Shown: positions 5,972 through 30,293 of the stretch, one piece after another
Layout of the letters: every line of letters starts with the position of its first letter
How positions within the stretch are numbered: position 1 is the first letter of the stretch
Origin: Pedobacter sp. Leaf250
GTDB taxonomy: Bacteria > Bacteroidota > Bacteroidia > Sphingobacteriales > Sphingobacteriaceae
Direction: 5' to 3'
Assembly: GCF_920984735.1 (NCBI RefSeq)
Contig: NZ_CAKLBU010000016.1
Span: 1-64,000, forward strand
DNA length: 64,000 nucleotides
Made by a program: the position numbers and the translations under genes
The notes under the pieces: generated by a model
Told to the model about the DNA's origin: nothing
Database searches by the model: none
What the model saw: the letters and a program-made list of their open reading frames with translations, nothing else

Positions 5972-5976
5972 CGGCC

Positions 5977-6771: not shown

Positions 6772-6803
6772 TAAAATTTAAACTTCAAAAATATCCACAA
6801 CTC

Positions 6804-9164: not shown

Positions 9165-9180
9165 GTAACAGGCAAAAAAC

Positions 9181-9219: not shown

Positions 9220-9224
9220 AAATC

Positions 9225-10385: not shown

Positions 10386-10452
10386 AAACACCTATATAGT
10401 TAGATAATATACGCAAATGATGTGAAAGGGTTTTGAAATTTAGCAACAAAAT

Positions 10453-10510
10453 TTGTGGCAACCTCGTCTACTTCTCTTCAGATAAAATAGCATGAGTGAG
10501 GTTGGCACAA
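10453..10510. repeat. Second intergenic inverted repeat with the shared CTGAAGAGAA core
   Basis: Arms TTGTGGCAACCTC (10453-10465) and GAGGTTGGCACAA (10498-10510) are complementary at 12 of 13 positions. The 32-bp spacer holds TTCTCTTCAG (10472-10481), the reverse complement of the decamer found inside the inverted repeat at 6669-6771. Confidence 0.45.
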
Positions 10511-10575
10511 ACTTTAGCGATATAGAAAGTCAAAATGTGCTCGTAAGCGCATTTGAAGTGAAACTTTACCTGTTT

Positions 10576-10872
10576 CTAGTGTGCATCATAAATGATTACC
10601 TTATCAAAGAAAATCTTAAATTCATCTAAAAATGCTTTGTGTAATGGATGAACCTGGTAAACATCGTGTGCAGCTAAATCTTCAAAAAATAAAACTAAAC
10701 TAAAAGTGTAAGTGGTATCAACAACTGCTCTTTGAATCGGCGCAGGCGTACCTACATGAAAAGTTTTAACAACTTCAATATTTTCTAATGTTTGTAAGCT
10801 TTTTAGAAAAGCAGCTTTTTGTTCTTCGGTGGTGTCGGTTTTTAACCAGAATAAAACGTGGTGGGATATCAT
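10576..10872 (-). CDS. Dabb family stress-responsive alpha/beta barrel protein
   Basis: The 98-residue protein is a single Dabb (stress-responsive A/B barrel, ferredoxin-like dimer) domain: it opens with MISHHVLFWLKTDTTEEQK, has the central hydrophobic YTFSLVLFFEDLAAHDVYQ and closes with HPLHKAFLDEFK and the VIIYD strand. The histidines of the opening and of HPLHK are conserved in the family. Some members act as small enzymes or stress proteins, but no activity can be assigned here. It lies 52 bp downstream of the ligD start-to-stop unit's end on the same strand side, and may be transcribed separately. Confidence 0.85.
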   Translation of the reverse strand: MISHHVLFWLKTDTTEEQKAAFLKSLQTLENIEVVKTFHVGTPAPIQRAVVDTTYTFSLVLFFEDLAAHDVYQVHPLHKAFLDEFKIFFDKVIIYDAH

Positions 10873-10924
10873 CTTTTATGTAATTTTTGCCCAAATATAA
10901 CAAATGATAAATAATCAATGTGGC

Positions 10925-13624: not shown

Positions 13625-13634
13625 TAGTCGCTAC

Positions 13635-13808
13635 TTATTTCTTTAAAAATTCTTCTACAGCATCTCCTGAATCGCCAACAATTTGAACTGCTGCTTTCAA
13701 CTTATCTTTACTTACGCCAAATTTATTGGACCAATAATCTACTTCATAGCTTTCGTTGATGTTGATACGACTGCGATCAGCACCAGTAGTTTTTGTTTCA
13801 TTATCCAT
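13635..13808 (-). CDS. DUF3606 small protein upstream of ligD
   Basis: I use ATG at 13808, giving 57 residues that begin MDNETKTTGADRSR; a longer frame from TTG at 13895 exists but its extra 29 residues do not match the family. The core NINESYEVDYWSNKFGVSKD followed by KLKAAVQIVG is the DUF3606 pattern, a short helical domain with a helix-turn-helix-like look and no established function. It is acidic to neutral and cytoplasmic. The gene sits 10 bp before ligD on the same strand, so a shared transcript and a link to stationary-phase or repair responses are plausible. Confidence 0.8.
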   Translation of the reverse strand: MDNETKTTGADRSRININESYEVDYWSNKFGVSKDKLKAAVQIVGDSGDAVEEFLKK

Positions 13809-14023
13809 GTTATCATCTGATTCAGAATAAATTAAACATCCATTAAACACAAAAGGTTTTACTTGATTGTTAGCATCAAAGCGTATTCCATGCAAGTCAA
13901 AAGTCGACTAGTTGAGAGGCAGAAAATATCTAGTATTTTTTTCAAAAAAAAGTTAAAAGTCCAAAACCAAATTAATGTTAATGATGTTAATTTATTTTAA
14001 CCAATTTATAAACTTTATAACCG

Positions 14024-14242
14024 ATGAATTACATTAACATTTCAACAACGGAAAGAAAAGAGCTAATTGACATTGCAGACGAGCAAGACCGCAATTATTG
14101 GGCAACCCGATTGGGAGTAAGCAGCGAAAGATTAAAATCTGCTGTTAAAGCTGTACAAAGTATGGAATTTTCAATTCTGAAGGATTATTTGAGTATGGAA
14201 AAAATCAAATCATCTAGCACATATCAACGTTTTGCCAGCTAA
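14024..14242 (+). CDS. Second DUF3606 family small protein, divergent from the first
   Basis: The 72-residue protein carries DEQDRNYWATRLGVSSERLK followed by SAVKAVQSM, the same W-x-x-x-x-G-V-S-x-x-x-L-K-x-A-V pattern as the protein at 13635-13808, so the two are paralogues. They are transcribed away from each other from a 215-bp region. The N-terminal residues (MNYINISTTERKELIDIA) differ from the first copy. Function unknown; the pairing next to ligD suggests a common stress regulation, which is inference. Confidence 0.75.
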   Translation: MNYINISTTERKELIDIADEQDRNYWATRLGVSSERLKSAVKAVQSMEFSILKDYLSMEKIKSSSTYQRFAS

Positions 14243-14292
14243 GATCATTTAAATCAATAGGATATATTTCGAAAATCGAATTTCTTAAATAT

Positions 14293-15429
14293 CTATTTAA
14301 TAAAGTTTTGATACAATAAATTTATAGCAGCCCGACTAAAATCAGGAAAGTCATCTGTATATGTCGGGTTTATTCCGTTTGTGATAATCACAAAACCAAA
14401 TTTCTCTTTTGGATTAAAAAACATGGTACTATAAAGTCCATAAGCCGATCCGGTATGACCTTTTAATTTAACATTGGGAATAAAATTATCAGCGCTTCTT
14501 ATGGCTAAACCGTAACCCTCATCACTTGTTATCGCGGTTTGCATTAACCTGGAACTTTTTTCAGAGATAATTTTTACCCCATTCGATTTGCCGTAGTTCA
14601 TGTGCATCATCATGTATTTAGCCAAATCATTTGCCGAAATCTTCATTCCACCTGTTGGAGAAAAAATTGGCGTCGAATAACCCATTACATATTTTTTAAT
14701 TTCATTTCTACGCGGTGCATAGGCGGCAGTTGCGTTGGTATATTCCTTTGAGTTTGAATTGTATTCGTAAAGCTTAACAAACCGTGTACTATCAAGAGAA
14801 TCTACACAATATCCACCGTAAAGTCCCAATGGTTTTAATACATGATTTCTAACATAATTATCAAAACGTTCACCAGACTTCTTTTCAATAATTGCTCCGA
14901 TAATATTAAAATTTAAATTACAATAATTGAATTTGCTTCCTGGCGCATAATCGTTGTAACATTTAGCCCAATCAGGGTTTTTTTCAGGATTAATTAAATC
15001 TAAATTTAAATATCCTTGCGAATCGTTAAGGCTTGAAGTGTGGGAAAGGGCCATTTTCAGCGTAATTTTCTGATCGGGATATTTTGGATTTCTAATCTTA
15101 AATCCAACCAGATCTCCAAAATCATCATCTAGAGAAAGTTTTCCAGCCTCTACCAATTGCATAATGGAAGTGGCCGAGAACGATTTTGAAATAGAAGCAA
15201 TGCGAAATATATCCTGATCAGTTAATTCAATCTTTTTTTCTAAATCCTTTAATCCAAATGAATGGGTATAAATTATTTTTCCCTTTTTTACCACTGCAAC
15301 CGATGCTCCTACTGCATTAAACTTTTGCATAACATCCTTAAAATCAGTTTCTATTTTCTCATTTTGAGCATAAACAGTTGTGCTGATTAATAAGAGTGTG
15401 AGCAGTAATTTTATAGAAGTTTTAATCAT
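14293..15429 (-). CDS. Exported serine hydrolase of the beta-lactamase class C / PBP4* family
   Basis: The 378-residue protein has a signal peptide (LLLTLLLISTTVYAQ, cleavage near residue 21). It then shows the beta-lactamase superfamily motifs: SxxK in IASISKSFSATSIMQ (nucleophile Ser), YxN in FNYCNLNFNIIG and a C-terminal HTGSAYG corresponding to the KTG-like box. Such proteins are periplasmic D-aminopeptidases, esterases or penicillin-binding-like hydrolases; true beta-lactamase activity cannot be inferred. It ends at the DUF3606 intergenic region and lies 33 bp downstream of the VOC gene, so the two may form a unit. Confidence 0.88.
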   Translation of the reverse strand: MIKTSIKLLLTLLLISTTVYAQNEKIETDFKDVMQKFNAVGASVAVVKKGKIIYTHSFGLKDLEKKIELTDQDIFRIASISKSFSATSIMQLVEAGKLSLDDDFGDLVGFKIRNPKYPDQKITLKMALSHTSSLNDSQGYLNLDLINPEKNPDWAKCYNDYAPGSKFNYCNLNFNIIGAIIEKKSGERFDNYVRNHVLKPLGLYGGYCVDSLDSTRFVKLYEYNSNSKEYTNATAAYAPRRNEIKKYVMGYSTPIFSPTGGMKISANDLAKYMMMHMNYGKSNGVKIISEKSSRLMQTAITSDEGYGLAIRSADNFIPNVKLKGHTGSAYGLYSTMFFNPKEKFGFVIITNGINPTYTDDFPDFSRAAINLLYQNFIK

Positions 15430-17573: not shown

Positions 17574-19691
17574 ATGAATGCTAATAATATTACTGATCAA
17601 TCAGCTCATGAAAATCAACTTATTCTCGATTTTATCCAGTTCACTAATCAACCTATTTTTTTAACCGGAAAAGCAGGTACCGGAAAAACCACTTTACTAA
17701 GGAAAATTAAAGAATCTACAAAGAAAAATTTTGCAGTGGTTGCCCCTACTGCCGTTGCAGCAATAAATGCTGGAGGCGTTACCATTCATTCTTTTTTTCA
17801 AATGCCATTTGGACCAATAATTCCGGTTGCAAACGATCAATTTAAAGAGGTAAAATATAACGAAGAAAAAATAAAGCTTTTAAAATGTTTGGAGCTTCTG
17901 ATTATTGATGAAATTAGTATGGTCCGGGCCGATATGGTCGATTTTATTGATCAATCATTAAAGAAAGTTAAAGGTTCAAACATGCCTTTTGGTGGTGTGC
18001 AGATTTTAATGATTGGCGATTTATATCAGCTTTCGCCAATTGCACATGATGCCTGGCATATTTTAAAAGAATATTATTTAAGTCCTTACTTTTTTGATAG
18101 CCAGATTCTTAAATCCATTTCCTTAACCAGCTTCGAACTTAAAAAAGTTTACCGCCAATCTGATCCGCTATTTATCGAAATTTTGAACAGAATCAGGGAA
18201 AATGATTTAACACCAGCATTATTAGATCAGCTAAATTCCCATTTCGACCCAAGCTTAAACGATGTTTGGAAAGATGAATACATTACCTTAACAACCCACA
18301 ATAACCTGGTAACTCAAATTAATAAAGATTGCCTTGAAAAACTTGATGGTGATTTACACAGTTTTAGTGCAAAAATAACGGGCGATTTCCCTAAAGATGC
18401 CTACCCTGTTGATGAAGTTTTGCAGCTTAAAGTCGGTGCACAGGTCATGTTTATTAAAAATGATTCTTCAGGAAAAAAACAATATTATAATGGAAAGGCG
18501 GCAAAAATTGTATCCATTGCGAAGGATAGAATTAGTGTTCAGTTTTTAGATGATTCGGCTCATTTTGAAGTGGAGCGTGAAGAATGGCAAAATTTAAAAT
18601 ACAATCTCGATCAGGAGGAAAATAAAATTGAAGAAGTTAATACCGGGGTTTTTTCTCAATATCCATTTAAATTGGCATGGGCAATTACCATCCACAAAAG
18701 CCAAGGATTAACTTTTGAAAAAGCCATTGTAGATATTAGCGCTTCTTTTACCCACGGACAGGCATATGTAGCATTAAGTAGGTGTAAAAGTTTGGCTGGT
18801 TTAATTTTAAAATCTCCCGTTAAGATGGAAAATATCATTACCGATAAACGGATAATAGGTTTTACTAAAAACGCTGTAAGCCAAATACCAACAGATCAAA
18901 GCCTGGCACTTTATATTAAAAAATATACATGGGATTTGGTTGATGATTTATTTGATTTTTCTTCACTAAAAGAAAATTGGGAAAGCATTAAAGATGTTAA
19001 GTTTAGTGCCTTTGATGAAAATGCTGCATTTAAAGCTATGACAACCAATATTTCGGATGTTTTGAATGCTGGACTTATCAGCGTTGGGGCGAAATTCAGA
19101 AGTCAGGAAATTGCAAAAATTTCAAAAGAAACTAATCTTGCTGATGAGGAGTTATTTCTTAATCGATTAGAGAAAGCGGCCAATTACTTTGTGCCAAAGA
19201 TCAATCAGGTGATTTCAGAAATAACAAAATTTACATCCTTGAAATTATTGGCTGATGAGAAATCGGAGAAAACTTTAAGTGTACTTATTTCCTCATTAAA
19301 TACATTAAATGTTAAACTGTCTTTGTTCAGTTATACCTGGAACGATTTTAACAGAGAAAACTACACTAAAATATTTCTGGCAGCAAGTAATAAGTATGAC
19401 TTGACTCCAAAGAAAACTTTCGTAAGTAAAATAGAAATCCCTAAAGAAATTACCAATCAAAAACTTTATAAAAGCTTAATAGATTGGCGCAATGAGTTAA
19501 GTAAAAAAAGAAATGTTCCTGAGCACACCATCCTTTCAGATGTAGCATTGATTAATATTGCTTCAAAACCACCAAAAACAACTGATCAATTGGCATCAAT
19601 CAGAGGAGTTGGTATTGGAAACGCTGTAGATTTGGGTGGAGATATTATGAAAATTGTAAATAGTTTTATGGGCGCCAGTACTTTATTTTAA
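17574..19691 (+). CDS. Pif1-type SF1 DNA helicase with C-terminal HRDC-like domain
   Basis: The 705-residue protein has the superfamily 1B helicase motifs in order: Walker A GKAGTGKTT (residues 32-40), VVAPTAVAAINAGG (motif Ia), Walker B LLIIDEISMV, QILMIGDLYQLSP (motif III), and near residue 365-400 AWAITIHKSQGLTFEKA with AYVALSRCKS (motifs V and VI). The C-terminal 80 residues (YKSLIDWRNELSKKRNVPEH onward to SIRGVGIGNAVDLGG) form an HRDC-like nucleic-acid-binding domain. Such Pif1/RecD2-like helicases unwind DNA 5' to 3' and act in replication or repair. The gene is separated by 7 bp from a convergent small membrane-protein gene. Confidence 0.92.
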   Translation: MNANNITDQSAHENQLILDFIQFTNQPIFLTGKAGTGKTTLLRKIKESTKKNFAVVAPTAVAAINAGGVTIHSFFQMPFGPIIPVANDQFKEVKYNEEKIKLLKCLELLIIDEISMVRADMVDFIDQSLKKVKGSNMPFGGVQILMIGDLYQLSPIAHDAWHILKEYYLSPYFFDSQILKSISLTSFELKKVYRQSDPLFIEILNRIRENDLTPALLDQLNSHFDPSLNDVWKDEYITLTTHNNLVTQINKDCLEKLDGDLHSFSAKITGDFPKDAYPVDEVLQLKVGAQVMFIKNDSSGKKQYYNGKAAKIVSIAKDRISVQFLDDSAHFEVEREEWQNLKYNLDQEENKIEEVNTGVFSQYPFKLAWAITIHKSQGLTFEKAIVDISASFTHGQAYVALSRCKSLAGLILKSPVKMENIITDKRIIGFTKNAVSQIPTDQSLALYIKKYTWDLVDDLFDFSSLKENWESIKDVKFSAFDENAAFKAMTTNISDVLNAGLISVGAKFRSQEIAKISKETNLADEELFLNRLEKAANYFVPKINQVISEITKFTSLKLLADEKSEKTLSVLISSLNTLNVKLSLFSYTWNDFNRENYTKIFLAASNKYDLTPKKTFVSKIEIPKEITNQKLYKSLIDWRNELSKKRNVPEHTILSDVALINIASKPPKTTDQLASIRGVGIGNAVDLGGDIMKIVNSFMGASTLF

Positions 19692-19698
19692 TAATTGC

Positions 19699-20202
19699 TT
19701 ATTGCTCAAATAGCACAAAATAGCAAACTGTAAGTAAAATCCCCAGAACCATAAAACCGATGCGGGCGAGCCACTTATTTAAAATGCTTTGCCCTTGTTG
19801 CGTAATGTTTCTTTCGAGGTTTTTTAGAAGAATTTCTTGCTTATCTACCTTTTCTTTTAGATCAAGATTTTCATTTTTAAGGTCAAAAATGCTTTTTCCG
19901 GTGTCTTCTTCTAATTTATTTAAAGCATAACGTCTTTTAAAACCACCTTCGCTAAGAAACATATCTACACCAGCTTGCTTGCCAACCATGGCTGGAAGTG
20001 GAACGCCATCTACGCGACCAACTAAAATTACAAGATTCATTTGAACCAGAAGATCCAGATAATCAGAGGCTAACGTTCCGTTTCCCCGAAATATTTTAAG
20101 TACTCTGTCGGATTTGATGTAAACTTCTTCCTCGAATTCGTTAAGGATATTATCCAAAAGCTCACATTTAGCTGGAGTTAAACTTATGGCAAGATTTTTC
20201 AT
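19699..20202 (-). CDS. Hypothetical coiled-coil protein with a C-terminal membrane anchor
   Basis: I do not recognise this 167-residue protein as a named family. It has a soluble N-terminal domain with hydrophobic strands (YLDLLVQMNLVILVGRVDG), a helical coiled-coil region (NENLDLKEKVDKQEILLKN) and one C-terminal transmembrane helix (IGFMVLGILLTVCYFVLF), so it would be tail-anchored in the inner membrane with its main part in the cytoplasm. It is convergent with the helicase gene and has no operon partner. No catalytic motif is visible. Confidence 0.65.
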   Translation of the reverse strand: MKNLAISLTPAKCELLDNILNEFEEEVYIKSDRVLKIFRGNGTLASDYLDLLVQMNLVILVGRVDGVPLPAMVGKQAGVDMFLSEGGFKRRYALNKLEEDTGKSIFDLKNENLDLKEKVDKQEILLKNLERNITQQGQSILNKWLARIGFMVLGILLTVCYFVLFEQ

Positions 20203-20382
20203 TTAGGTGAACGTGGATTATTCAGCAAGAAAGCAAAAAAAAATTTAAACAGAAAGTTTTATTACAAAATAAGCCAGAATAGCACATTTGGGAGAGCGAA
20301 AAATGTATTTTTTTAATTTGATTTTAATTTTTAAGCAAAACTTAGTGATTGAAAGCGATGTTTATAATTTAAAAAACATGCT

Positions 20383-20601
20383 ATGGAAAATCAAGATCAA
20401 CAACCAATAAAAAATGATGAGAATTCGCATCATGAGCAGCATCCGGTAAACCAATCAAAAGACAATGTTACGGATCCTTCAGGAAAAGAAAATGAAGATG
20501 AAAAGTATACAGAAGATGAAATACCATTTGCAGATGGAGAAGGAACTCAATTAAACGAAGCTATAGATAAGCAAGAAGATAGTGATGAGGATAACGATTA
20601 A
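20383..20601 (+). CDS. Small, very acidic hypothetical protein
   Basis: The 72-residue product is almost entirely Asp, Glu, Asn, Gln, Lys and His and should be intrinsically disordered, with a short DEIPFADGEGTQLNEAID segment as its most structured part. Small hydrophilic proteins of this type are frequent in Sphingobacteriaceae and resemble stress or desiccation proteins, but no function is known. A strong hairpin terminator follows 9 bp after the stop, which supports the gene being real and monocistronic. A comparable acidic protein is encoded at 33098-33304. Confidence 0.7.
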   Translation: MENQDQQPIKNDENSHHEQHPVNQSKDNVTDPSGKENEDEKYTEDEIPFADGEGTQLNEAIDKQEDSDEDND

Positions 20602-20609
20602 ATAAAAAT

Positions 20610-20641
20610 AGAGCGTTCGATTAATTGAACGCTCTTTTTTT
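20610..20641 (+). terminator. Intrinsic terminator
   Basis: Perfect 9-bp arms AGAGCGTTC (20610-20618) and GAACGCTCT (20627-20635) with an 8-base loop are followed by a T-run. Confidence 0.9.
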
Positions 20642-20960
20642 ATTAATCTAAATCGCCTCGTTGATTTAATTCTAACCGATCAAACTTGTATTTTTTTTGT
20701 TATACAATTTATAAATAATGAAGTATAAATTAACTGTATCATAATCTACTTCTCTATAATTGACAATAACCTGTAAATCAATAAATTAAATAACTCCAAT
20801 TGTATTTATTTTATTCTAATTTAACACTATTAAAGCTTTTTAATTTGTCTTATTAATTCCCTAAAAAACGATTAAATCCCCCACTACAGCATAAATTATT
20901 TTTCATTTTTTTCTTACAGCAATTGCAATTACAAAAATTAAATGCAACTTTGTGGCGTAA
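20642..20960. other. AT-rich region upstream of the putative zinc cluster
   Basis: I find no gene in this stretch. It must carry the promoter of the cluster starting at 20961. A perfect 10-bp palindrome AATTGCAATT at 20921-20930, inside GCAATTGCAATT, lies about 30 bp before the start codon and could be an operator; CAACTTTG at 20943-20950 resembles the -7 element TAnnTTTG with one change. Both are suggestions only. Confidence 0.35.
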
Positions 20961-21305
20961 ATGAATATAAGGGAATTAAATGGCAAACATGGATTAGTTA
21001 AAGCGATAAGTGCTTTACTGATCTTTACTTTTTCCTTTATTTCTTTTGTCCAGATTACACATGCCCATAGCAATAATGATATTGAGCATGTTGGCGATCA
21101 AAAAGAAAACGTTTCTTTTACCGAGAAATGTTCTATTTGCGATTATTTAGTCCATAAACATGGAAAAGATATATTGCTGCCTCCTCCCTTTTCAATTTCT
21201 TATGTGCTGCCTGATATCAATACTCAATTTACTGGGGTATTTGTTGGCAATTATAAATTTACACTTCAAGGCTTTACCAATAAAGGTCCGCCCATATTAG
21301 CCTAA
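20961..21305 (+). CDS. Small exported Cys/His-containing protein heading the metal cluster
   Basis: The 114-residue protein has a hydrophobic N-terminal segment (AISALLIFTFSFISFVQITH) acting as signal or anchor. The mature part is rich in metal-ligand residues: HAHSNNDIEHVGD, then CSICDYLVHKHGKD with a CxxC followed by HxH. It resembles short hypothetical proteins often found immediately before TonB-dependent receptor genes in Bacteroidota. A metal-sensing or metal-handling role is inferred from this and from the downstream genes. The gap to the receptor gene is 109 bp and the order suggests one transcription unit. Confidence 0.65.
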   Translation: MNIRELNGKHGLVKAISALLIFTFSFISFVQITHAHSNNDIEHVGDQKENVSFTEKCSICDYLVHKHGKDILLPPPFSISYVLPDINTQFTGVFVGNYKFTLQGFTNKGPPILA

Positions 21306-21414
21306 AATATGCCATTGGGCATTCTCATTTACAATATTTCTTAATTTTTAATATGATTAAATAGCTATTCATACGCTTTTTTAATCATTTATCTATTGGC
21401 TCCGGCCTTTTGCA

Positions 21415-23802
21415 ATGCATAAATTTTTTATTACAGTTATTTTCCTACTAGGAATCGGAAGGGCGCATGCTCAACAATTTGAGTTAAAAGGAAAAGTTTC
21501 GAGTAACCTTAATCCTGTACCTCAAGCTACAGTTTATCTACTTCACTCTTCATTTTCAACCATTACCAATGATCGAGGTGAATTTGCATTTGCTGCGTTA
21601 CCAAAAGGGAAATATAACTTGGTGGCTGCTGCTGAAGGTTTTGCCAAGAAAGTAATTGTTGTCGAAATCGATGATCAACCGGTATTTAAAAATATAATTC
21701 TTCAAAAAGAAATAAAGCAGTTAAACGATGTAACCATAAAAGATAAACATGTTGAAGATCGCCAAAGTTCCGAGTCAATGAATATTGAAGTGGTTAATCA
21801 GGATTTCATTCAACGTAATTTGGGAGGAAGCCTGATGAAAAGCCTTGAACGGCTTCCCGGAATTAAAACTATTGGTATTGGTTCAGGACAATCAAAACCA
21901 CTAATTAGAGGTTTGGGCTTTAACAGGGTTGTTGTTGTAGATAAAGGAATTAAACACGAAGGCCAACAGTGGGGAGCCGATCACGGACTAGAAATTGATC
22001 AATTTGCCATAGGAGAAATTGAATTAATTAAGGGATCGGCATCTTTTATTTATGGCTCTGATGCCATTGGTGGGGTAATTGATATTCTCCCTGTGGATAT
22101 TCCAGCGCCTAATACCATTGGTGGTTCAATCGATCTTATTGCAAAAAGCAATAACAATCTGTACGGAACATCTGCAAATTTTTACGGCAGAAACCAAAAG
22201 TGGTTTTTCGATTCACGTTTTACCTATCAAAATTACGGCGATTATCGTGTACCAACAGATCAGGTTTATGTGTACGATTATGCAGTAAATTTATACAAAA
22301 ACCACTTAAGAAATACTGCCGGAAGGGAAACGGGTGTCCATTTCAATGCAGGTTATGTTGGAAATAAGTTCAGATCAATTTTTTATTTAAGCAACACCTA
22401 CACCAAAAGCGGCTTTTTTGCGAACGCACATGGACTTGAACCTAGGCGTGTAAATGAACAGCTTCATGATGGCTCAAACCGGGATATTTTACATCCATAC
22501 CAATCAGTTAACCATTTTAAAATTATAAATAGGTCGAGCTATCAATTTTTAAATCACAAAATCGAAGTAGAGCTAGGTTACCAGAAAAACTTCAGACAAG
22601 AATTCAGTCAGTATGTAAATCATGGTTTCATGCCTTCAATCTATCCTACATCATTATTAATTCCAAACGACTTGGAAAGGGAGTTTAACAAAACGGTTTA
22701 TTCCGCCAACCTGAAAGATAAAATTACAATTGATGCACATGAGTTAACTGTTGGAATAAATGCAGAGGCGCAAAACAATAATATAAATGGATGGAGCTTT
22801 TTAGTCCCTGCATTTAACCAAAAAACCCTTGGTGCTTTTGCATATGATAAATATAAAATTTCTGAAAATGTATTGCTACATGGAGCCTTAAGGTTCGATA
22901 GAGGGCAAATCGACATGTCTCAATATTACGACTGGTTTCCTTCCGATATCAATATTGATGGTATAGCAACATCACAAAACCTACAACGTGCTGCCAATTT
23001 AAACCGAATCTTTAACAGTTTTGTATGGTCTGCCGGATTAAACTACAATCTGGAAAAATTTAGTTTGAAGGCAAATTTTGGCAAAAGTTTTAGAATGCCA
23101 ATTGCCAAAGAACTTGGTGCCAATGGCGTTAATTATCACTATTTCAGTTATGAGAAAGGTAATCCAGATCTTGGTGCTGAAAAATCATATCAGGCAGATT
23201 TAACTCTGGCTTGGAACGCCGATAGATGGTCAATTCAATTGAGTCCGTTTTACAATTATTTTCCAAACTACATTTATCTAAACCCCACTTCTCGGCATGA
23301 TTACGCCTATGGTGCAGGTAATCAAATATTCGAATATCAACAAAGTAGAGTACAACGCTATGGTGGAGAACTTCAATTCAAATATGAAATTTCTAAAAGT
23401 TTAAGTGCTCAATTTTTAGGAGAAATATTACAGGCTAGGCAATTATCAGGTGATAAAAAAGGGTTTACATTGCCATTTTCACCTCCAGCTTCAACATTGA
23501 TAAACCTCACCTATTCTCCTTATTTAGGCAATATATGGCGTAATACTTATTTCTCATTCGATTATCGTTTAACCAGTAAACAGAATAACATTGTCCCTCC
23601 GGAAAAGAAAACGCCGGGTTATCAGGTAATCAATATCCAGGCTGGAACTAAGTTATCATTATATGGTAATCCATTACAATTAAGCTTCCAGGTTCAAAAT
23701 TTATTGGATACGAAATATCTCAACCATACCAGTTTTTATCGTCTTACCGAACTTCCTGAAGCGGGTAGAAACCTTGTGCTTTCTGTAAAAATTCCTTTCT
23801 GA
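21415..23802 (+). CDS. TonB-dependent outer membrane receptor, ZnuD-like
   Basis: The 795-residue protein has a signal peptide (FFITVIFLLGIGRAHAQ), an N-terminal carboxypeptidase-D-like domain (FELKGKVSSNLNPVPQATVY, residues about 22-105), a plug (KSLERLPGIKTIGIGSGQSK, then IKGSASFIYGSDAIGGVIDI) and a 22-strand-type barrel ending in the aromatic TLPEAGRNLVLSVKIPF-type strand. The plug segment GQQWGADHGLEIDQFAIGEI closely follows the H-x-G-Q-x-W-G-x-D-H-x-x-E-I-D pattern of ZnuD-type zinc receptors. It would move a metal or metal complex across the outer membrane using TonB-ExbBD energy. Two His-rich lipoproteins and an AztD-like protein follow within 50 bp each. Confidence 0.88.
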   Translation: MHKFFITVIFLLGIGRAHAQQFELKGKVSSNLNPVPQATVYLLHSSFSTITNDRGEFAFAALPKGKYNLVAAAEGFAKKVIVVEIDDQPVFKNIILQKEIKQLNDVTIKDKHVEDRQSSESMNIEVVNQDFIQRNLGGSLMKSLERLPGIKTIGIGSGQSKPLIRGLGFNRVVVVDKGIKHEGQQWGADHGLEIDQFAIGEIELIKGSASFIYGSDAIGGVIDILPVDIPAPNTIGGSIDLIAKSNNNLYGTSANFYGRNQKWFFDSRFTYQNYGDYRVPTDQVYVYDYAVNLYKNHLRNTAGRETGVHFNAGYVGNKFRSIFYLSNTYTKSGFFANAHGLEPRRVNEQLHDGSNRDILHPYQSVNHFKIINRSSYQFLNHKIEVELGYQKNFRQEFSQYVNHGFMPSIYPTSLLIPNDLEREFNKTVYSANLKDKITIDAHELTVGINAEAQNNNINGWSFLVPAFNQKTLGAFAYDKYKISENVLLHGALRFDRGQIDMSQYYDWFPSDINIDGIATSQNLQRAANLNRIFNSFVWSAGLNYNLEKFSLKANFGKSFRMPIAKELGANGVNYHYFSYEKGNPDLGAEKSYQADLTLAWNADRWSIQLSPFYNYFPNYIYLNPTSRHDYAYGAGNQIFEYQQSRVQRYGGELQFKYEISKSLSAQFLGEILQARQLSGDKKGFTLPFSPPASTLINLTYSPYLGNIWRNTYFSFDYRLTSKQNNIVPPEKKTPGYQVINIQAGTKLSLYGNPLQLSFQVQNLLDTKYLNHTSFYRLTELPEAGRNLVLSVKIPF

Positions 23803-23845
23803 AATAAAATCAATCAATTATACACATCCAAAAAAAACATCCATT

Positions 23846-24556
23846 ATGAACAAGATTACAAAACCATTTTTAGGTTTATTAATTATTACATCGATTTTTA
23901 CCGCATGTAAAAAAGATGAAGTTACAACGGATCCGCCGACCCTTACGAATTTGGAAGTCGGCACGAATAACAACAAAACGGCTTATCCAGGAACAGATAT
24001 TCATTTTGAAGCCGATCTTTTTTCCGTAAGTAATTTAGCCAGTGTTCAACTCACTATCAAACCTAAATCAGGTTCGGGTTGGAACTTTACTCAAACCTAC
24101 ACTGAAGGTTTTGCCAACTTAAAAAATGCAAGTTTTCATAAACATATTGATGTACCCGCTACTGCAGTGTTAGGCAATTACACTGTAACGATAAAGGTGA
24201 TCGATCAGTTAGGGAAGTCAACAGAAGTAAGCAGTGATTTAGAAATTAAATATGATCCAACGCTCCCTAACGCTTCAGCTTTCAAGGTTGGATTAAATAC
24301 TGCAGGAAACGATTTGCATGTAGAAGCTGCGATTGCAGCCATAAATAAGGTTGCTCGGGTTGAAGTAGAAGTTCATGGTTCGGCCTGGGAAAAGGATTTT
24401 TTATTTACCGATGCAGCTATGGTTGGAGTAACCAATTACAATTTCCACAAACACCTCGATGTTACCGCTGCACCTAAAGGCCATTATCACGTTCATTTAA
24501 AAATTGTAGATCAGCTAGGAAAAGAAAATGAATTTGAGGAACATTTTGATAAATAA
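23846..24556 (+). CDS. DUF4625 lipoprotein with two immunoglobulin-like repeats and His clusters
   Basis: The 236-residue protein has a lipoprotein signal (LLIITSIFTACKKDE, lipobox Cys near residue 20). It then carries two DUF4625-like beta-sandwich repeats: the first with NASFHKHIDVPA and GNYTVTIKVIDQLGKS, the second with YNFHKHLDVTA and GHYHVHLKIVDQLGKE. The repeated HKH and HYHVH clusters look like metal ligands. It is probably tethered to the outer membrane beside the receptor encoded 43 bp upstream. Role inferred: zinc capture or hand-over. DUF4625 itself has no assigned function that I know of. Confidence 0.8.
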   Translation: MNKITKPFLGLLIITSIFTACKKDEVTTDPPTLTNLEVGTNNNKTAYPGTDIHFEADLFSVSNLASVQLTIKPKSGSGWNFTQTYTEGFANLKNASFHKHIDVPATAVLGNYTVTIKVIDQLGKSTEVSSDLEIKYDPTLPNASAFKVGLNTAGNDLHVEAAIAAINKVARVEVEVHGSAWEKDFLFTDAAMVGVTNYNFHKHLDVTAAPKGHYHVHLKIVDQLGKENEFEEHFDK

Positions 24557-24568
24557 AAATTTATAACG

Positions 24569-25057
24569 ATGAAAAATAAATTCAATTTAAAAGCCAAAGC
24601 TTATCTGATTCTATCTGTTTTAACAATTTTCTTATTGAGCAATTGCAAGAAGGAAACTGAAGAAATTGATACCACCTACCCCGAAATTATTGCCAGTTCA
24701 ACGGCTTTTCCGCAACAGTGCAGCACAATTAAACGTGGCGAATCTTTCACCTTTAAAACACGGGTAAGTGATAATGTAGAACTGGGTTCTATGAGTATTG
24801 ATATACACCACAATTTCGATCACCACTCTCACAGTACAGAGGTAAACAGCTGCAATATGGAGGCAGTTAAATCTCCTGTAAAGCCATATTTATTAATTAG
24901 GGAAATTAGTATTCCAGCAGGACAAAAAAATTATGAGGCCACTGCTTCAATCAATGTTCCAGCTGATATAGACCCCGGCGATTACCACTTTTTAATCAGG
25001 ATTACTGATAAAGCTGGCTGGCAAACCATTAAAGGAATTAGTATAAAAATAAATTAA
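24569..25057 (+). CDS. Second DUF4625 lipoprotein, single repeat, His-rich
   Basis: The 162-residue protein has a lipoprotein signal (VLTIFLLSNCKKETEE, lipobox Cys near residue 27) followed by one DUF4625-like beta-sandwich. In it the segment DIHHNFDHHSHSTEVNS has six histidines within ten residues or so, a likely metal-binding loop at the position of HKHID in the preceding gene product. The end reads DPGDYHFLIRITDKAGWQT. It starts 12 bp after the preceding DUF4625 gene, clearly the same operon. Likely a surface or periplasm-facing partner of the receptor. Confidence 0.8.
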   Translation: MKNKFNLKAKAYLILSVLTIFLLSNCKKETEEIDTTYPEIIASSTAFPQQCSTIKRGESFTFKTRVSDNVELGSMSIDIHHNFDHHSHSTEVNSCNMEAVKSPVKPYLLIREISIPAGQKNYEATASINVPADIDPGDYHFLIRITDKAGWQTIKGISIKIN

Positions 25058-25074
25058 TCAATAAATCAAACCTT

Positions 25075-26313
25075 ATGTTATCTAAAAACAATTTTAAAAA
25101 GGCAGCAATGTTAGTTGCTGTAGCAGCAGCATTTGCAGCATGTAAAAAAGACAATGAGCAGCCTATTGAAGAGCCCTCGGCAACAGCCAAAGAATTTAAA
25201 TATGTTAGATTTTTAACAGCTGATGAAACTTCGAACAAACTGACTTTGGTTGACCCATCTACAGCAACTATTACATCTTTCGATGCAAAATTCCCATTGG
25301 CTAACCTTTATGCAACATCTTCAGGTAGATACGCCTCAGTACTTTATGGAGCACAAAACCTGGTAGAAGTGTTTGACAGTGGGTTAAGTTCTCATGTAGA
25401 TCATATAGATGTATTAAATAATCCAAAATGGGCCAGCATAACCGCTACAGGCATTAAGCCAACGCATTTTAAATCAAAATCCAATGAAAGTTTGATTTTT
25501 AATGATGGTGACGGAACTTTAAGCAGTGCTATGGAAAGCGATTTTAATACCGCTGGCGCAAAATTTTCTATCGTAAATGCAGGTCTGTTACCGCACCATG
25601 GCGCAATGGCTCAATTTACCAACGGAACGTATGCAGTTACTTCTACAGCTACCGCGGGAACTTCTCCAAACCGTGTTTTAGTAATTGATAAAGATGGTAA
25701 AACTATATATGCTTCAACATTGGAAATTGGCGCCATTCATGGTAATGCCAGCGATGGAACAAATGCTGTTTTTGGTGGCTTTACTGATTCTACAGCCAAT
25801 GCAGGTGGCATTTTAGTTGTAAAATCAACAGGTGAACAAAAATTAATTCCAAATCCTGATGGATTTGGGGCATTTAGATTAGCCAGTATTTATTATGCAG
25901 AATCAGCTAAAAAATTTATTGGCTATGTGGCTACAAAAGGTGCTTACTCAATAGATATCGCTAACAATAAAATTGCACCAATTTATAGCGGAGCCGATGC
26001 ATTTCAATGCAAAGTAGATTTTGCAGGCAAAAATTTATTGGTTTTAACTTTAGATGGTAAATTAAGAATATATGATTTAGCTACTGGTGCACTGAAAAAG
26101 GAAGGCTCCGTAATATCGGCAACTTCAAGTACCGATACCTATAAACCAGTGCTCGAAGCCACAACGAAATATGCATACATTGCAGTACCAACTTTAGGTG
26201 AGGTTCATCAAATTGATTTGTCGACTTTTAATTTAACGGCAAAACATAAAGTATCTTCCAAACCAGTACGTTTAGCTATTTTCGGTTTTGAAAGTAATGC
26301 TTCTCACAATTAG
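25075..26313 (+). CDS. AztD-like beta-propeller lipoprotein, putative zinc chaperone
   Basis: The 412-residue protein has a lipoprotein signal (AMLVAVAAAFAACKKDNE, lipobox Cys near residue 23) and a beta-propeller body. Histidines sit in the pattern I recall for the periplasmic zinc chaperone AztD: SSHVDHIDV, KPTHFKSK, LLPHHGAMAQF and LEIGAIHGNASDG. In Paracoccus AztD delivers zinc to the solute-binding protein AztC. Here there is no AztABC, and the protein is lipid-anchored beside a TonB receptor, so it may instead collect zinc at the outer membrane. It starts 17 bp after the second DUF4625 gene and closes the operon. The family match is from motif memory and needs a profile search. Confidence 0.72.
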   Translation: MLSKNNFKKAAMLVAVAAAFAACKKDNEQPIEEPSATAKEFKYVRFLTADETSNKLTLVDPSTATITSFDAKFPLANLYATSSGRYASVLYGAQNLVEVFDSGLSSHVDHIDVLNNPKWASITATGIKPTHFKSKSNESLIFNDGDGTLSSAMESDFNTAGAKFSIVNAGLLPHHGAMAQFTNGTYAVTSTATAGTSPNRVLVIDKDGKTIYASTLEIGAIHGNASDGTNAVFGGFTDSTANAGGILVVKSTGEQKLIPNPDGFGAFRLASIYYAESAKKFIGYVATKGAYSIDIANNKIAPIYSGADAFQCKVDFAGKNLLVLTLDGKLRIYDLATGALKKEGSVISATSSTDTYKPVLEATTKYAYIAVPTLGEVHQIDLSTFNLTAKHKVSSKPVRLAIFGFESNASHN

Positions 26314-26380
26314 AATTAAAATGAAAAGACTATTTCGAAAGTAGAAATTGGAATAAGCAACTAAATTTATTTCCTTTTCC

Positions 26381-26456
26381 CGTCATTCCCGCCAAGGTAG
26401 GATCTTAAAACGCTAAAAAAGCCATTTTAAAATCTCTAACTAAATTGGGAATGACG
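26381..26456. repeat. Intergenic inverted repeat CGTCATTCCC / GGGAATGACG
   Basis: Perfect 10-bp arms at 26381-26390 and 26447-26456 enclose 56 bp. The element lies between the convergent zinc cluster and DUF4142 gene. The CGTCATTCCCG motif is a frequent end of dispersed miniature repeats in many bacteria; the copy may also act as a hairpin terminator for both flanking genes. Confidence 0.55.
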
Positions 26457-26500
26457 GTCCTTTGAAATATAATTTACATAATTGAGTAGAACCTATATTT

Positions 26501-27190
26501 TTAACCTTTAACCATTGCAGTAACCTGCGATAGGTGCGCTTTAAATTTCGTAAGGTATTTTTTTGAGAATGCTTTCACCTCTTTGTCAGCTGATTTTGAT
26601 CCCGCCTCAAAAAGTGCTACAATATTTTGGTAATCCTGAATGCTCGATGCAAGGTAAGCGTTATCAAAATTTTCTCCCTTAACTGCTTTTAATTTGCTAA
26701 TTGATTCCTGAATGTCAGCATCGCGGAGCATTTTAAAACCCTGAATCATTACATCCTTAGCTTGACCAGTATTTCCAGCTTCTCCCTGATTTTGATTTCG
26801 GGAAGTATCTTGCAATGTAGTTGGGGCAGAATCGACTCTCCCATCTGGCCTTTGACCATCATCAGGTTTGCTGGCTGTTAAGGTAATATTCTTAATTTTA
26901 GCCAATGCGATAAGTTCTTTATTCGCGGCAGTATGAAGATCCAATGCCGATTTAGCAACTCTTTTAATTTTCTCATTGCCTGCATTTTGTGCCGCAATGC
27001 CGCTTTTTTGTACTTCTTTTAAACCGTAAAGCAAAGCCTGATTCATGAATGCTTCAGTAGGAAAAACATCCTGAATAAAAGATTTTTCTATCTGACCTGT
27101 TAACTTTCGACTTGGAGCTTCAGTTGCATACAAACTATTTCCAAGGGAGAACGACAATAGAAGTGCGAAAGCTGTTTTTATGTTTTTCAT
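26501..27190 (-). CDS. DUF4142 (ferritin-like four-helix) exported protein
   Basis: I start at ATG 27190 (MKNIKTAFALLLSFSLGNS), which begins with a signal peptide; the frame extends to a GTG 13 codons upstream that would bury it. The 229-residue protein has two DUF4142 helical pairs: SFIQDVFPTEAFMNQALLYG with LKEVQKSGIAAQNAGNEKIK, and later KDVMIQGFKMLRDADIQESI with YQNIVALFEAGSKSADKEVK. An unusual Gln/Asn/Gly-rich insert (about residues 105-140) separates them. DUF4142 proteins are periplasmic, stress-induced and of unknown activity. A second member is encoded at 34513-35118. Confidence 0.82.
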   Translation of the reverse strand: MKNIKTAFALLLSFSLGNSLYATEAPSRKLTGQIEKSFIQDVFPTEAFMNQALLYGLKEVQKSGIAAQNAGNEKIKRVAKSALDLHTAANKELIALAKIKNITLTASKPDDGQRPDGRVDSAPTTLQDTSRNQNQGEAGNTGQAKDVMIQGFKMLRDADIQESISKLKAVKGENFDNAYLASSIQDYQNIVALFEAGSKSADKEVKAFSKKYLTKFKAHLSQVTAMVKG

Positions 27191-27362
27191 GGCTGATGTA
27201 AATGGTATATAGAAACAACCTAAAAACACTTAAAATAGTTTGTAATAATGATAGTTTGTTAAAGGGTATAATTACAATAGTTAATAACTTATACTTTGTG
27301 AACAACTAACTTAAACAACTGGTAATGATAGTCGTTAAGCATATATACTTAACATAAAGCTT

Positions 27363-27725
27363 ATGAGAAAGTGCATATATGTTGTAGAAGATAATCCGAA
27401 TATTAGAGAGATTATCGAATTCTTACTTACCGAAGAGCTATATGATGTTAAAGCTTGCCGTAACACAACAGATTTCTGGATACAGATGCAAGAGAGCATT
27501 CCGGATATGGTTATTTTAGATATTATGTTGCCGGATGGAAATGGAATAGACATTTGCAGCCAACTCAAAACCAACATTAAAACGCACAAGATTCCTGTAA
27601 TGATGATGTCGGCAAATAATCATTTAAATGCCGTTAAAGCAAAATGTACAGCCGAAGATTTCATTAATAAACCCTTCGATTTAAATGATTTTGCCAGTCG
27701 CGTAGAACGGTATTTACCGAATTAA
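27363..27725 (+). CDS. Receiver-only response regulator
   Basis: The 120-residue protein is a single CheY-like receiver domain: acidic pair in VVEDNPNIRE, phosphoacceptor Asp in DMVILDIMLPDGNG (about residue 53), Thr/Ser switch in VMMMSANNH and the Lys in EDFINKPFD. There is no output domain. It is a close relative of the receiver at 51840-52208, sharing LLTEE, LPDGNGI, PVMMMSA and AEDFI-KPFD. Its stop codon is immediately adjacent to the stop of the convergent K+ channel gene. Partner kinase unknown. Confidence 0.9.
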   Translation: MRKCIYVVEDNPNIREIIEFLLTEELYDVKACRNTTDFWIQMQESIPDMVILDIMLPDGNGIDICSQLKTNIKTHKIPVMMMSANNHLNAVKAKCTAEDFINKPFDLNDFASRVERYLPN

Positions 27726-28550
27726 TTACTTAAATAATGATGAGCCGCAATGCTTGCAGAAAAGCGCATCAGTATCATGACCTTCCAAACTACAACTTGG
27801 ACAAGATTCGGGCATTTCTTTTTTTGATTTAGCGGCAATGGCTATATCGTGTGTAATAATTCCTGTTGGAACGGCAATAATGGCATAACCAATAAGCATA
27901 ACTACAGATGCAACAAATTTTCCCATCGGTGTAATTGGTGATATATCTCCATAACCTACCGTTGTTATGGTTACAATTGCCCAATAAATACTTTCCGGAA
28001 TGTTGGAAAAGCCGTTTTCTCTTTTTTCAACCAAGTACATAATAGAGCCCAAAATCACAGTAATGGTTAATACCGTTAATAAGAAAATACTAATTTTTCG
28101 AAAACTGTTTCTTAAAGCCTGTGTAAGAAAGTTAATCTCACTTAAAAATTCTCCGAGTTTAAAAATTCTAAAAACCCTTAACAACCTCAACGCCCTGAAA
28201 GCCAATAGCGACTGTGCCCCAAGAAAAAATATGCTTAAATAGGATGGCAATAATGAAATAAGGTCGATTATTCCTAACAAACTGAAAACATACCTTATCG
28301 GTTTTTTTATGCTGATTAATCTTAAAATATATTCTATTGTGAATAAGGCAGTAAAAACCCACTCTACGTAATAAAATAAATTACCATATTTATTGTGGAT
28401 ACTTATAACACTATCGAGCATTACCACAATAATGCTGGTAAAAATAGCGATGAGTAAACCTACATCAAAAGCTTTGCCTGCAGGTGAGTTCGATTCGTAA
28501 ATAACCTCGTGCAAACGAAAGCGCCAATGCCCAGATGTTTTTGGTTTCAT
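27726..28550 (-). CDS. Voltage-gated-like potassium channel with C-terminal zinc ribbon
   Basis: The 274-residue protein has six transmembrane segments of the Kv type. The S4 voltage sensor is recognisable as RALRLLRVFRIFKLGEF, with Arg at about every third residue, and the selectivity filter is TITTVGYGDISP. After S6 (VMLIGYAIIAVPTGII) a short cytoplasmic tail ends in CPSCSLEGHDTDALFCKHCG, a CxxC...CxxC zinc ribbon. It would conduct K+ across the inner membrane and set membrane potential. A zinc ribbon tail also ends the DUF421 protein at 30416-31111. Monocistronic, convergent with the receiver gene. Confidence 0.92.
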   Translation of the reverse strand: MKPKTSGHWRFRLHEVIYESNSPAGKAFDVGLLIAIFTSIIVVMLDSVISIHNKYGNLFYYVEWVFTALFTIEYILRLISIKKPIRYVFSLLGIIDLISLLPSYLSIFFLGAQSLLAFRALRLLRVFRIFKLGEFLSEINFLTQALRNSFRKISIFLLTVLTITVILGSIMYLVEKRENGFSNIPESIYWAIVTITTVGYGDISPITPMGKFVASVVMLIGYAIIAVPTGIITHDIAIAAKSKKEMPESCPSCSLEGHDTDALFCKHCGSSLFK

Positions 28551-28669
28551 TTTATAAAATTAATCATTTGCTAAATATGTGTTGCGATTATTATTATACT
28601 TTCATTTCTTGAATTGTTTTTTCATTCTATTGTTTTAAACATAGTAGATCATAATCTGTTAAATTGAAT

Positions 28670-29389
28670 ATGAAGAAATTTTTACTCCTAATATTTTTTA
28701 CATCCATATTTATTCATGCATCAGCCCAATATAGCGATAGTACCAACTATCATATTATGCTATCTTCTACCGGCTCAATTAATAGAACCAATGATCAACG
28801 TGCATATTTATTAAACAACGGTTTAAATTTTGGGATGAAAAAAGAAACTTTCGTGCTAAATTCTACTACCAGCTGGCTTTATGGGAAACAAAACAAGAGC
28901 TTAAGCAACAATGATTTTTCGAGTACACTTAACTTTAATTTATTCAAAGGTCCGGCACATTTTTATTATTGGGGTTTATTAAATTACAATACCAGCTATT
29001 CGTTAAAGCTAAAAAACCAATTACTTGCTGGTGGTGGTATTGCATATAGTTTTCTTGATGAACCAAATTCATATATCAATTTGAGCAATGGTATTTTATT
29101 CGATCAGAGTAGTTTGGTTATTGGCAAGAGCTATAACACATTACGAAATTCGTTAAGGTTACAATTTCATTTTCAGGTTAAAGAAATTCTTACCATCGAT
29201 GGAAGCCATTTTCTACAAAATTCCTTTTCGCGTGGCGGCGATTATATCATTCGCTCATCCACAACAATTGGCTTAAGGCTTCGAAAATGGATTAGTTTAA
29301 CAACCTCACTAAATTATAACAGGTTAAATATAACCAGTAGAGAGAACTTAAATTTCACATATGGTTTAAGTTTGGATAAATATTTCTAA
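28670..29389 (+). CDS. DUF481 outer membrane beta-barrel protein
   Basis: I start at ATG 28670 (MKKFLLLIFFTSIFIHASAQ), a clear signal peptide; a TTG two codons earlier is less likely. The 239-residue protein alternates aromatic and hydrophilic residues in barrel strands (FVLNSTTSWLYGKQNK, HFYYWGLLNYNTSYSLKLKN, LLAGGGIAYSFLDEPN) and ends with an aromatic residue typical of outer membrane proteins (LSLDKYF). This is the DUF481 or YdiY-like family, linked in E. coli to salt or acid stress. Ligand unknown. It is divergent from the K+ channel gene. Confidence 0.8.
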   Translation: MKKFLLLIFFTSIFIHASAQYSDSTNYHIMLSSTGSINRTNDQRAYLLNNGLNFGMKKETFVLNSTTSWLYGKQNKSLSNNDFSSTLNFNLFKGPAHFYYWGLLNYNTSYSLKLKNQLLAGGGIAYSFLDEPNSYINLSNGILFDQSSLVIGKSYNTLRNSLRLQFHFQVKEILTIDGSHFLQNSFSRGGDYIIRSSTTIGLRLRKWISLTTSLNYNRLNITSRENLNFTYGLSLDKYF

Positions 29390-29545
29390 CCGTAATTGCT
29401 TATCCATGTATTTGTATCTGGCAAAAAATATCTATCACCAAATGTTAATAATTTTTTAAGCATTGTATATCACTGATAAACAGATTAAAAGTTGCAATAT
29501 TTCAATTTATAAGATTTCGCTTACATCAATTTCATATTCAAATCA

Positions 29546-29553
29546 TAATTTTG
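29546..29553 (+). promoter_or_regulatory. Bacteroidota -7 promoter element TAATTTTG
   Basis: TAATTTTG fits TAnnTTTG and ends three bases before the ATG at 29557. It overlaps the upstream TTG that could otherwise be called as the start, so the ATG is preferred and the message would be nearly leaderless. Confidence 0.55.
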
Positions 29554-29556
29554 TGT

Positions 29557-29757
29557 ATGGCAAATACAAACGTTAGAAAATCAATTCAAAGCAAGATAGA
29601 ATCATTAGGTAGGGAAATAGAAAGCCTTCAGCAAGAACTTTTAAAATGGGAAAAAATAGCCGCTGATTACGAAACGAACTCGGAAAGTATTGATCTCATC
29701 TTGTCTATTCAAGTTCCAGAAAAAACGGAAGGCAAACCTAAAAGAGTAAAAGCTTAG
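29557..29757 (+). CDS. Small coiled-coil hypothetical protein
   Basis: The 66-residue protein (start MANTNVRKSIQSKI) is mostly one helix with a heptad-like pattern (IESLGREIESLQQELLKWEK) and a basic tail (KPKRVKA). I do not recognise a named family. The TTG at 29551 lies inside the -7 element and is rejected as start. It is probably a small cytoplasmic helical protein that forms a dimer or binds a partner. No operon partner is visible; the next gene begins 131 bp downstream. Confidence 0.6.
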   Translation: MANTNVRKSIQSKIESLGREIESLQQELLKWEKIAADYETNSESIDLILSIQVPEKTEGKPKRVKA

Positions 29758-29888
29758 GCTTTTTTCGAAAATATCATCGCCTAAACTTAATAGTCTACTC
29801 ATTTATTTATTGATCAATCAATTGCATCTTCAAAACAGAACAATAATGATCAAATTGTGTTACTTAAACATTAACCAATTTAAAAGTT

Positions 29889-30293
29889 ATGAGTTTAACA
29901 TTAGAAATAGTAGAAAAGTTATCTGCGGCGGCAAAAGCTAAAGCAAGCGAAATAGGTGTTCCAATGAATATTGCTGTTGTTGACGAAGGTGCAAACCTAA
30001 AAGCATTTCATAGAATGGATAATGCCTGGCTAGGATCGATTGATATCTCCATTAAAAAAGCTAAAACAGCACGTTTTTTTGATATGGATTCGGGAGAAAT
30101 CGGGAAATTATCACAACCAGGTCAACCACTTTATAATATCGAACATTCCAATGGCGGCTTAATCAGCTTCCCTGGCGGCGTAGTGTTAAAAGATGAATCT
30201 GGAAAAGTAATCGGTGCCATTGGGGTATCTGGTGGAAGTGTAGAGCAAGATCATGAAGTTGCAAGCGCTGGTGCAGCAGCATTAAAATCATAA
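29889..30293 (+). CDS. GlcG/HbpS-type heme-binding-domain protein
   Basis: The 134-residue protein is a full GlcG/HbpS (DUF336) domain: [77 protein letters not shown] and [19 protein letters not shown]. Members form octamers; HbpS of Streptomyces binds heme and responds to redox stress, and others are linked to glycolate or corrinoid metabolism. No signal peptide is present. The gene is monocistronic, with a strong terminator 8 bp after the stop. Function here is unresolved. Confidence 0.9.

Follow-up and report, generated by a model that had tools for sequence, protein, structure and literature searches.

Pedobacter sp. Leaf250 (genome 4.82 Mb) carries, within a 64,000-nucleotide stretch of contig 16 (hereafter the window), five neighboring genes that are reasonably likely to form an outer-membrane zinc uptake unit. 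The unit would be under Zur-type control and would work in the manner of BtuB and BtuG, with a β-propeller of the AztD type recruited from ATP-binding cassette (ABC) transport. The genes are co-directional on the + strand (20961–26313; gaps of 109, 43, 12, and 17 bases) and encode a small protein, a ZnuD-like TonB-dependent receptor, two DUF4625 lipoproteins (A and B), and an AztD-like propeller lipoprotein. A sequence-only reading of the window had named these five open reading frames in this order, along with the motifs QQWGADHGLEID, HKH, DHHSHS, HVDH, PTH, PHHG, and IHG, and all of them are present.

As judged from sequence and predicted fold, the propeller is a real relative of AztD. It matches the NCBIfam AztD model NF038015 with an E-value of 3.2e-22 (78.8 bits) and the AztD structure 6cmk in the PDB with an E-value of 3.8e-13, and a profile search returns both 6cmk and 6ck1. 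An AlphaFold2 model built from 26 sequences (predicted local distance difference test score, pLDDT, 84.5) retrieved AztD chains as its top nine matches in Foldseek (E 9.6e-26 to 4.8e-21; next fold, 1.8e-11). Alignment of the model with VIA-align gave 6ck1_B at Z 40.4 (root mean square deviation 2.4 Å, 357 residues aligned), with the first other entry at Z 24.0. Sequence identity to AztD is about 20%; among named propeller genes, the closest belongs to Pedobacter agri, at 87% identity.

The zinc ligands of PdAztD, as given in the available text of PMC6689063, are H124, H167, and H218 at site 1 and H99, H102, D104, and H408 at site 2. In the profile alignment these correspond to H131, H175, and H222 of the propeller (site 1) and to H107, H110, and D112 (site 2), and the end of the structural alignment pairs H411 with H408. 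All seven ligands are invariant in 26 aligned propellers, namely the window protein and those of 25 of the 37 loci described below (of the 12 loci left out, four hold fragments or frame-broken genes and eight are intact and were omitted for brevity). The invariant histidines of this alignment (H107, H110, H131, H174, H175, H222, and H411) are the six histidine ligands plus H174, the only invariant non-ligand histidine, which neighbors H175. The metal that these sites would bind is presumably zinc. Five propellers (L060, L064, L071, L074, and L081) have an Asp/His-rich tail directly after the lipid-bearing cysteine; the window protein has none.

The receptor combines a TonB plug, a barrel, and a CarboxypepD_reg domain (Pfam). 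Its first match in the PDB is ZnuD (4rdr, E 8.5e-22), followed by PhuR (1.6e-8), and nine of its 19 histidines are invariant among 21 orthologues. It is 26% identical over 840 columns to the receptor of another operon in the same genome (C2, below) and is far from that of a third (C12, below). Both proposals of the sequence-only reading about these two proteins are borne out: AztD homology by sequence, profile, predicted fold, and all seven zinc ligands, and likeness of the receptor to ZnuD by its nearest solved structure.

Both DUF4625 proteins pass the 27-bit cut-off of Pfam PF15418 (scores in Table 1). DUF4625 A consists of two repeats, each with an HKH motif. DUF4625 B carries a conserved DxHHNFDxHxHSTEV stretch, and D78, H80, H81, N82, F83, D84, H86, H88, S89, T90, E91, C51, C95, and H140 are invariant in 19 sequences. 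Its predicted structure (pLDDT 85.7) is a β-sandwich in which residues 86–92 fall below 50; as a guess from the model, this loop might become ordered by metal. The best VIA match of DUF4625 B is a carbohydrate-binding module (Z 9.8, 2.7 Å, 101 residues aligned), which we dropped as the fold because there are many near ties; we call it simply an immunoglobulin-like sandwich. The name DUF4625 does not occur in the open PMC papers searched. The N-terminus of the small protein is hydrophobic and ends in HAH; CxxCD, HKH, and a C-terminal NYKFTLQGFTNKGPP follow. Among 19 sequences, including a paralogue from C12, H34, C57, C60, G109, P110, and P111 are invariant and H36 is nearly so. The protein of the window gave no match in Pfam or NCBIfam; seven Pfam families each match one or two of the 19 members (best E 0.0024), and these look like chance.

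The gene combination recurs. A scan of genome contigs with the propeller alone gave 37 named loci, and in 25 of these the receptor, DUF4625, and the propeller occur in one stretch; as the loci were found by propeller similarity alone, the association is not chance. The recurrence that the sequence-only reading had proposed to look for is thus found for the gene set. Twenty-two loci hold the small gene, the receptor, two DUF4625-type genes, and the propeller together, in somewhat variable order (L080 and L081 are frame-broken, and L083 ends at a contig end inside the propeller). The other three of the 25 are L048, which is cut at its start, and L053 and L077, which have no recognized small gene. 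The small gene accompanies DUF4625 and the propeller in L054 and L058 and adjoins the propeller in L050 and L057. By record titles, the form with the receptor occurs in Pedobacter, Daejeonella, Dyadobacter, Chitinophaga, Segetibacter, Niabella, and Flavobacterium. The propeller itself is patchily distributed: it occurs in 9 of 121 family genomes, and at E 0.001 the AztD model matches 12 of 296 in the phylum, with four weak matches among these.

A palindrome precedes the first gene of the window. Its consensus, TGCAAC-NNN-GTTGCA, resembles metal-regulator sites of Bacteroidetes and was fixed from background knowledge and the window sequence, ahead of the comparison with other loci. The window copy, TGCAACTTTGTGGCG, has two mismatches to this consensus, and within the window alone the pattern is without significance (2 found, 2.7 expected). 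The promoters of the loci can be compared in 36 cases (the window and 35 loci, L048 and L082 having no usable upstream sequence). The palindrome occurs with at most two mismatches in 32 of these (six with none, 11 with one, and 15 with two), as against ~0.9% of 2289 windows of equal size from these loci and 1.6% of shuffles; the promoters are related and hence are not independent cases. In an alignment of 10 promoters the core of the palindrome is nearly unchanged and the flanks have diverged. The conserved palindrome fits a Fur-family operator. A Zur-like site had been expected before the cluster, and a conserved palindrome of Fur-family type is indeed there, at 20943–20957 in place of the AATTGCAATT proposed near 20921. 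The latter exists at 20921–20930, is common (46 copies in the 4.82-Mb genome; two in the window, 0.97 expected), and is unconserved in the 10 promoters, and we rejected it as the operator.

Across the Leaf250 genome, sites with at most two mismatches number 149 a strand (control, 95); a first pattern search allowing three mismatches was mostly noise (25 places, 17 in the control). Among the matches listed, nine places have no mismatch or one (Table 1). Flanks were read at C12:126824, C2:261616, C1:103618, and C24:4984, and the last two showed no metal gene by eye. Of the two-mismatch places, C4:41088 lies among what we take by eye to be molybdenum-cofactor genes, and C1:51432 lies, again by eye, inside a gene.

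The search for Fur-family genes found two in the genome. One scores 100.8 bits with Pfam FUR (C21) and the other 45.2 bits (C2), and C21 is the better candidate for iron. The C2 regulator, whose nearest PDB chains are Fur (8e-8), closes a row of genes (L100:4049–10467) in which MerC is followed by an ABC ATPase, a MacB/FtsX-type permease, and two proteins with weak likeness to DUF3299, and a TonB receptor gene is divergent to MerC. Tandem palindromes, with one and two mismatches, lie between the receptor and MerC. A DUF3299 identity for the two proteins was set aside: 7 of 10 members match at best with E 0.0024, the best PDB match of the profile has E 0.077, and one single sequence gave nothing. 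The regulator has a match in 88 of the 121 family genomes. We took 16 regulator loci from relatives, nine of which hold MerC, and in all nine the palindrome (one or two mismatches) lies 15–48 bases before the MerC match. MerC and the regulator are co-directional in eight of the nine; in L187 an opposite gene lies between them. Of the seven loci without a MerC match, three (L178, L186, and L191) have no palindrome and three others (L177, L183, and L190) each have one two-mismatch site elsewhere; in L185, sites lie ~170–195 bases ahead of a receptor-like gene. For regulator loci taken with 1.5 kb of flank, sites with at most two mismatches occur in 14 of 30, as against 35 of 300 shuffles (a third control was contaminated with known sites and was unused). 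In three genomes (L050, L057, and L042), moreover, a relative of the regulator is encoded close to the propeller. As judged from the sites before MerC and from this proximity, the link between palindrome and regulator is good, and the gene content suggests that the regulator senses zinc. One of the three, L057 from Pedobacter quisquiliarum, has a compact island (5609–14392) with the Fur-family regulator, small protein, propeller, and a DUF3299-like and a DUF4625 protein. To these we would add, by eye, MerC-like and alkaline-phosphatase-like proteins and an ABC ATPase and permease.

The sequence-only reading had placed the unit in a cell without AztABC, and the genome agrees to the extent that no ABC-3 permease of the ZnuB/AztB type (PF00950) was found in it or in 13 other genomes of the genus in the sample. 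PF00950 matches 20 of the 121 family genomes; among the nine family genomes with the propeller, only G031 matches, marginally (23 bits). No ABC genes occur among the open reading frames of the cluster, though no profile search was aimed at AztC or AztA. ZIP carriers exceed the cut-off in 110 of the 121 family genomes, including Leaf250, in which a second ZIP match may represent the remaining part of the first one's gene.

We propose that the five genes constitute an operon for outer-membrane uptake when zinc is scarce; its repressor would be a divergent, Zur-type member of the Fur family, acting through the palindrome. The propeller would be lipid-anchored to the outer membrane, probably on the outside, and would bind zinc at an exposed site 2 and a pore site 1. 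From there zinc may pass to the ZnuD-like receptor, as B12 passes from BtuG to BtuB, through a presumed contact of the two proteins. The two histidine-rich DUF4625 lipoproteins may collect zinc in the vicinity of the receptor, and after import it may be bound, in the periplasm or the inner membrane, by the small CxxC/HxH protein. Entry across the inner membrane would use the ZIP carrier of the genome or another transporter; a ZnuB/AztB-type permease would not serve, since none was found.

Several findings weigh against this proposal. The propeller lies far under the 400-bit cut-off of NF038015, which is reached in none of the 296 phylum genomes. The receptor, at 131.4 bits, misses the 950-bit cut-off of the ZnuD model NF038289 and scores slightly higher with the NCBIfam heme-receptor model TonB-hemin (142.3 bits). 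Zur chains score below Fur for the regulator (2o03, 1.5e-4; 4mtd, 2.7e-3), and because Zur and Fur cannot be told apart by these PDB matches, its metal is not settled by sequence. Four of the 36 promoters are without the palindrome (L063, L065, L067, and L077; three with four mismatches and one with five), and 4 kb around a ZIP match of the Leaf250 genome contains no site under three mismatches. The five genes are presumably a single transcript; a weak terminator-like hairpin 3' of the small gene (21309–21322) makes this uncertain. A promoter and terminator scan gave 27 promoter-like sites (25.2 in shuffles) and seven terminator-like sites (4.6), with no terminator-like site between 26314 and 26700.

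The heme-model score and the nearness of the regulator to Fur would also suit another cargo (iron as heme, copper, cobalt, or manganese), with the palindrome belonging to a Fur- or copper-type response; soft metals are also in keeping with MerC and with CxxC proteins. Set against this are the complete set of AztD zinc ligands in the propeller, the lead of ZnuD far ahead of heme receptors in the PDB search, and the presence of C21 as the better candidate for iron, and we regard another cargo as highly improbable.

The side of the outer membrane on which the lipoproteins sit must also be weighed. A surface export signal of lipoproteins, C-X-K-(D/E)2, has been defined in Capnocytophaga, according to the available text of PMC5080379. 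The mature start of DUF4625 A after its lipobox, CKKDE, is an exact fit and that of DUF4625 B, CKKET, a near fit; the propeller, with CKKDN, is one residue short of a signal that comes from another genus, a further point against the proposed surface location. Among propellers, a lipobox was recognized in 41 of 47 rows (some genomes appear twice), and in 30 of those 41 the mature protein begins with CKKD. L058 holds a further protein, starting CKKDF, that we take by eye to be SusD-like. Also unfavorable is the finding that in eight of the 37 loci the propeller has none of the other genes in its neighborhood (L066, L069, L070, L073, L074, L076, L078, and L082, the last at a contig edge; L073 has a far weaker receptor match upstream on the other strand, 25% identical), so that a relay with the other lipoproteins cannot be obligatory for it. 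Six of these loci, from Hymenobacter and Telluribacter (L066, L069, L070, L073, L076, and L078), have their own palindrome with zero to two mismatches, which implies that the propeller can serve without a neighboring ZnuD-like receptor. Such loci would be natural if the lipoproteins faced the periplasm, with zinc imported by the receptor and with the propeller and the DUF4625 proteins acting as periplasmic buffers or chaperones, like proteobacterial AztD. The exact surface signal of DUF4625 A, the CKKD starts shared with the presumed SusD-like protein, and the receptor gene nearby in 25 of the 37 loci argue the other way, and we consider a periplasmic orientation rather unlikely; exposure at the surface is the location that these features suggest.

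Sites outside the cluster touch on a further alternative. The only exact palindrome among the matches listed in the Leaf250 genome overlaps the start of a second small CxxC...GPP protein on C12 (L099:7345–13839). An ABC ATPase, a DUF3526 permease (Pfam), what is by eye a second permease, and a siderophore-type TonB receptor follow. In 40 other genomes of the genus, 12 have an exact site. In nine of these (L107–L112, L115, L116, and L118) the exact palindrome TGCAACNNNGTTGCA lies 82–139 bases before a conserved 63-amino acid precursor of a pinensin-type lanthipeptide; L113, L114, and L117 have no such precursor in 3 kb. Both precursors that were scored exceed the NF038180 cut-off. The core in most is PTHTEPTDDHHTP..KCTTVIC or close to it (L111 is without DDHH) and is mostly histidine-rich. 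A LanM-like cyclase gene lies beside the precursor, a Zur-like regulator is nearby in L144, and L142 and L144 have what we take by eye to be ABC-2 type permeases. The lanthipeptide is a candidate for a zinc-controlled and perhaps zinc-binding peptide.

These lanthipeptide genes, and the siderophore-type receptor in the operon that follows the exact site of the Leaf250 genome, would suit import of a metallophore-bound metal in place of free zinc. The receptor would then take a peptide or small-molecule zinc complex, which the lipoproteins would strip or hold; in Pseudomonas aeruginosa, according to the available text of PMC11481552, pyochelin is moved by Zur-controlled operons. No biosynthetic genes were recognized by eye among the open reading frames of 18000–30000, and the receptor of the cluster is nearest to ZnuD, not to siderophore receptors. 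We therefore regard metallophore import as improbable and prefer capture of the bare ion.

Table 1. Features of the candidate zinc uptake unit in the window and related sites in the Leaf250 genome
Feature	Position	Strand	Basis or remark
Putative operator for a Zur-type regulator, TGCAACTTTGTGGCG	20943..20957	+	3 bases between operator and first-gene ATG
Small secreted or membrane protein, 114 aa	20961..21305	+	Open reading frame; alignment of 19 sequences
ZnuD-like TonB-dependent receptor, 795 aa, N-terminal CarboxypepD_reg	21415..23802	+	Pfam barrel, plug, CarboxypepD_reg; PDB match
DUF4625 lipoprotein A, 236 aa	23846..24556	+	PF15418 97.1 bits, 2 stretches; lipobox read from sequence
DUF4625 lipoprotein B, 162 aa	24569..25057	+	PF15418 133.9 bits; model pLDDT 85.7
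AztD-like β-propeller lipoprotein, 412 aa	25075..26313	+	NF038015 E 3.2e-22; 6cmk/6ck1 profile matches; structural alignment
Palindrome places with 0–1 mismatch, Leaf250 genome	C12:126824, C2:261616, C1:103618, C24:4984, C3:185815, C4:257768, C6:52350, C12:21615, C23:48614

More tentatively, several genera of Bacteroidota may have turned AztD into a surface lid on a TonB receptor, giving BtuG-type capture of a bare metal ion in genomes in which no ZnuB/AztB-type permease was found. In relatives, Zur-type control may also cover pinensin-type lanthipeptides that may bind zinc. No description of AztD with a TonB receptor was found in the titles and abstract starts of the open PMC literature searched, and the word Bacteroidetes is absent from the main text of the AztD paper PMC6689063. 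If correct, the proposal would show how bacteria lacking a ZnuABC-type importer may scavenge zinc and would give a first candidate function for DUF4625; the operator sequence offers a means to test the zinc regulon of Pedobacter-like bacteria.

The C2 operon, which lies outside the cluster of the window, resembles the Zur-regulated MacB-type PA4063–PA4066 of P. aeruginosa (available text of PMC11481552) in its split MacB-type ABC pair, weakly DUF3299-like proteins, and palindromes, and differs in having MerC and its own Fur-family regulator. ZnuD is the nearest solved relative of the window receptor, which, unlike ZnuD, falls under the curated cut-off, has a CarboxypepD_reg domain, and travels with lipoproteins. 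In Bacteroides, BtuG is a surface propeller that forms a lid on the TonB receptor BtuB, and lipoprotein lids on TonB receptors serve vitamin B12 and glycans (SusCD), according to the available text of PMC10404256. As in that system, genes for a TonB receptor and a propeller lipoprotein lie together, and 8bmx_D, a chain of the B12 receptor–lipoprotein complex, is at rank 22 among the folds matched by the propeller model. Here, however, the complex is a putative one, the propeller is nearest to AztD and not to BtuG, and the cargo would be a metal ion, which would widen the lipoprotein-lid principle. With AztABCD of Paracoccus and Citrobacter, the unit shares the propeller fold, both zinc sites, and all seven ligands. 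It differs in that no AztB-type permease was found in the genome, the partner genes are a TonB receptor and DUF4625, and the propeller, about one-fifth identical to AztD, is a lipoprotein. Together these features suggest the transfer of a known zinc-handling part to a new machine.

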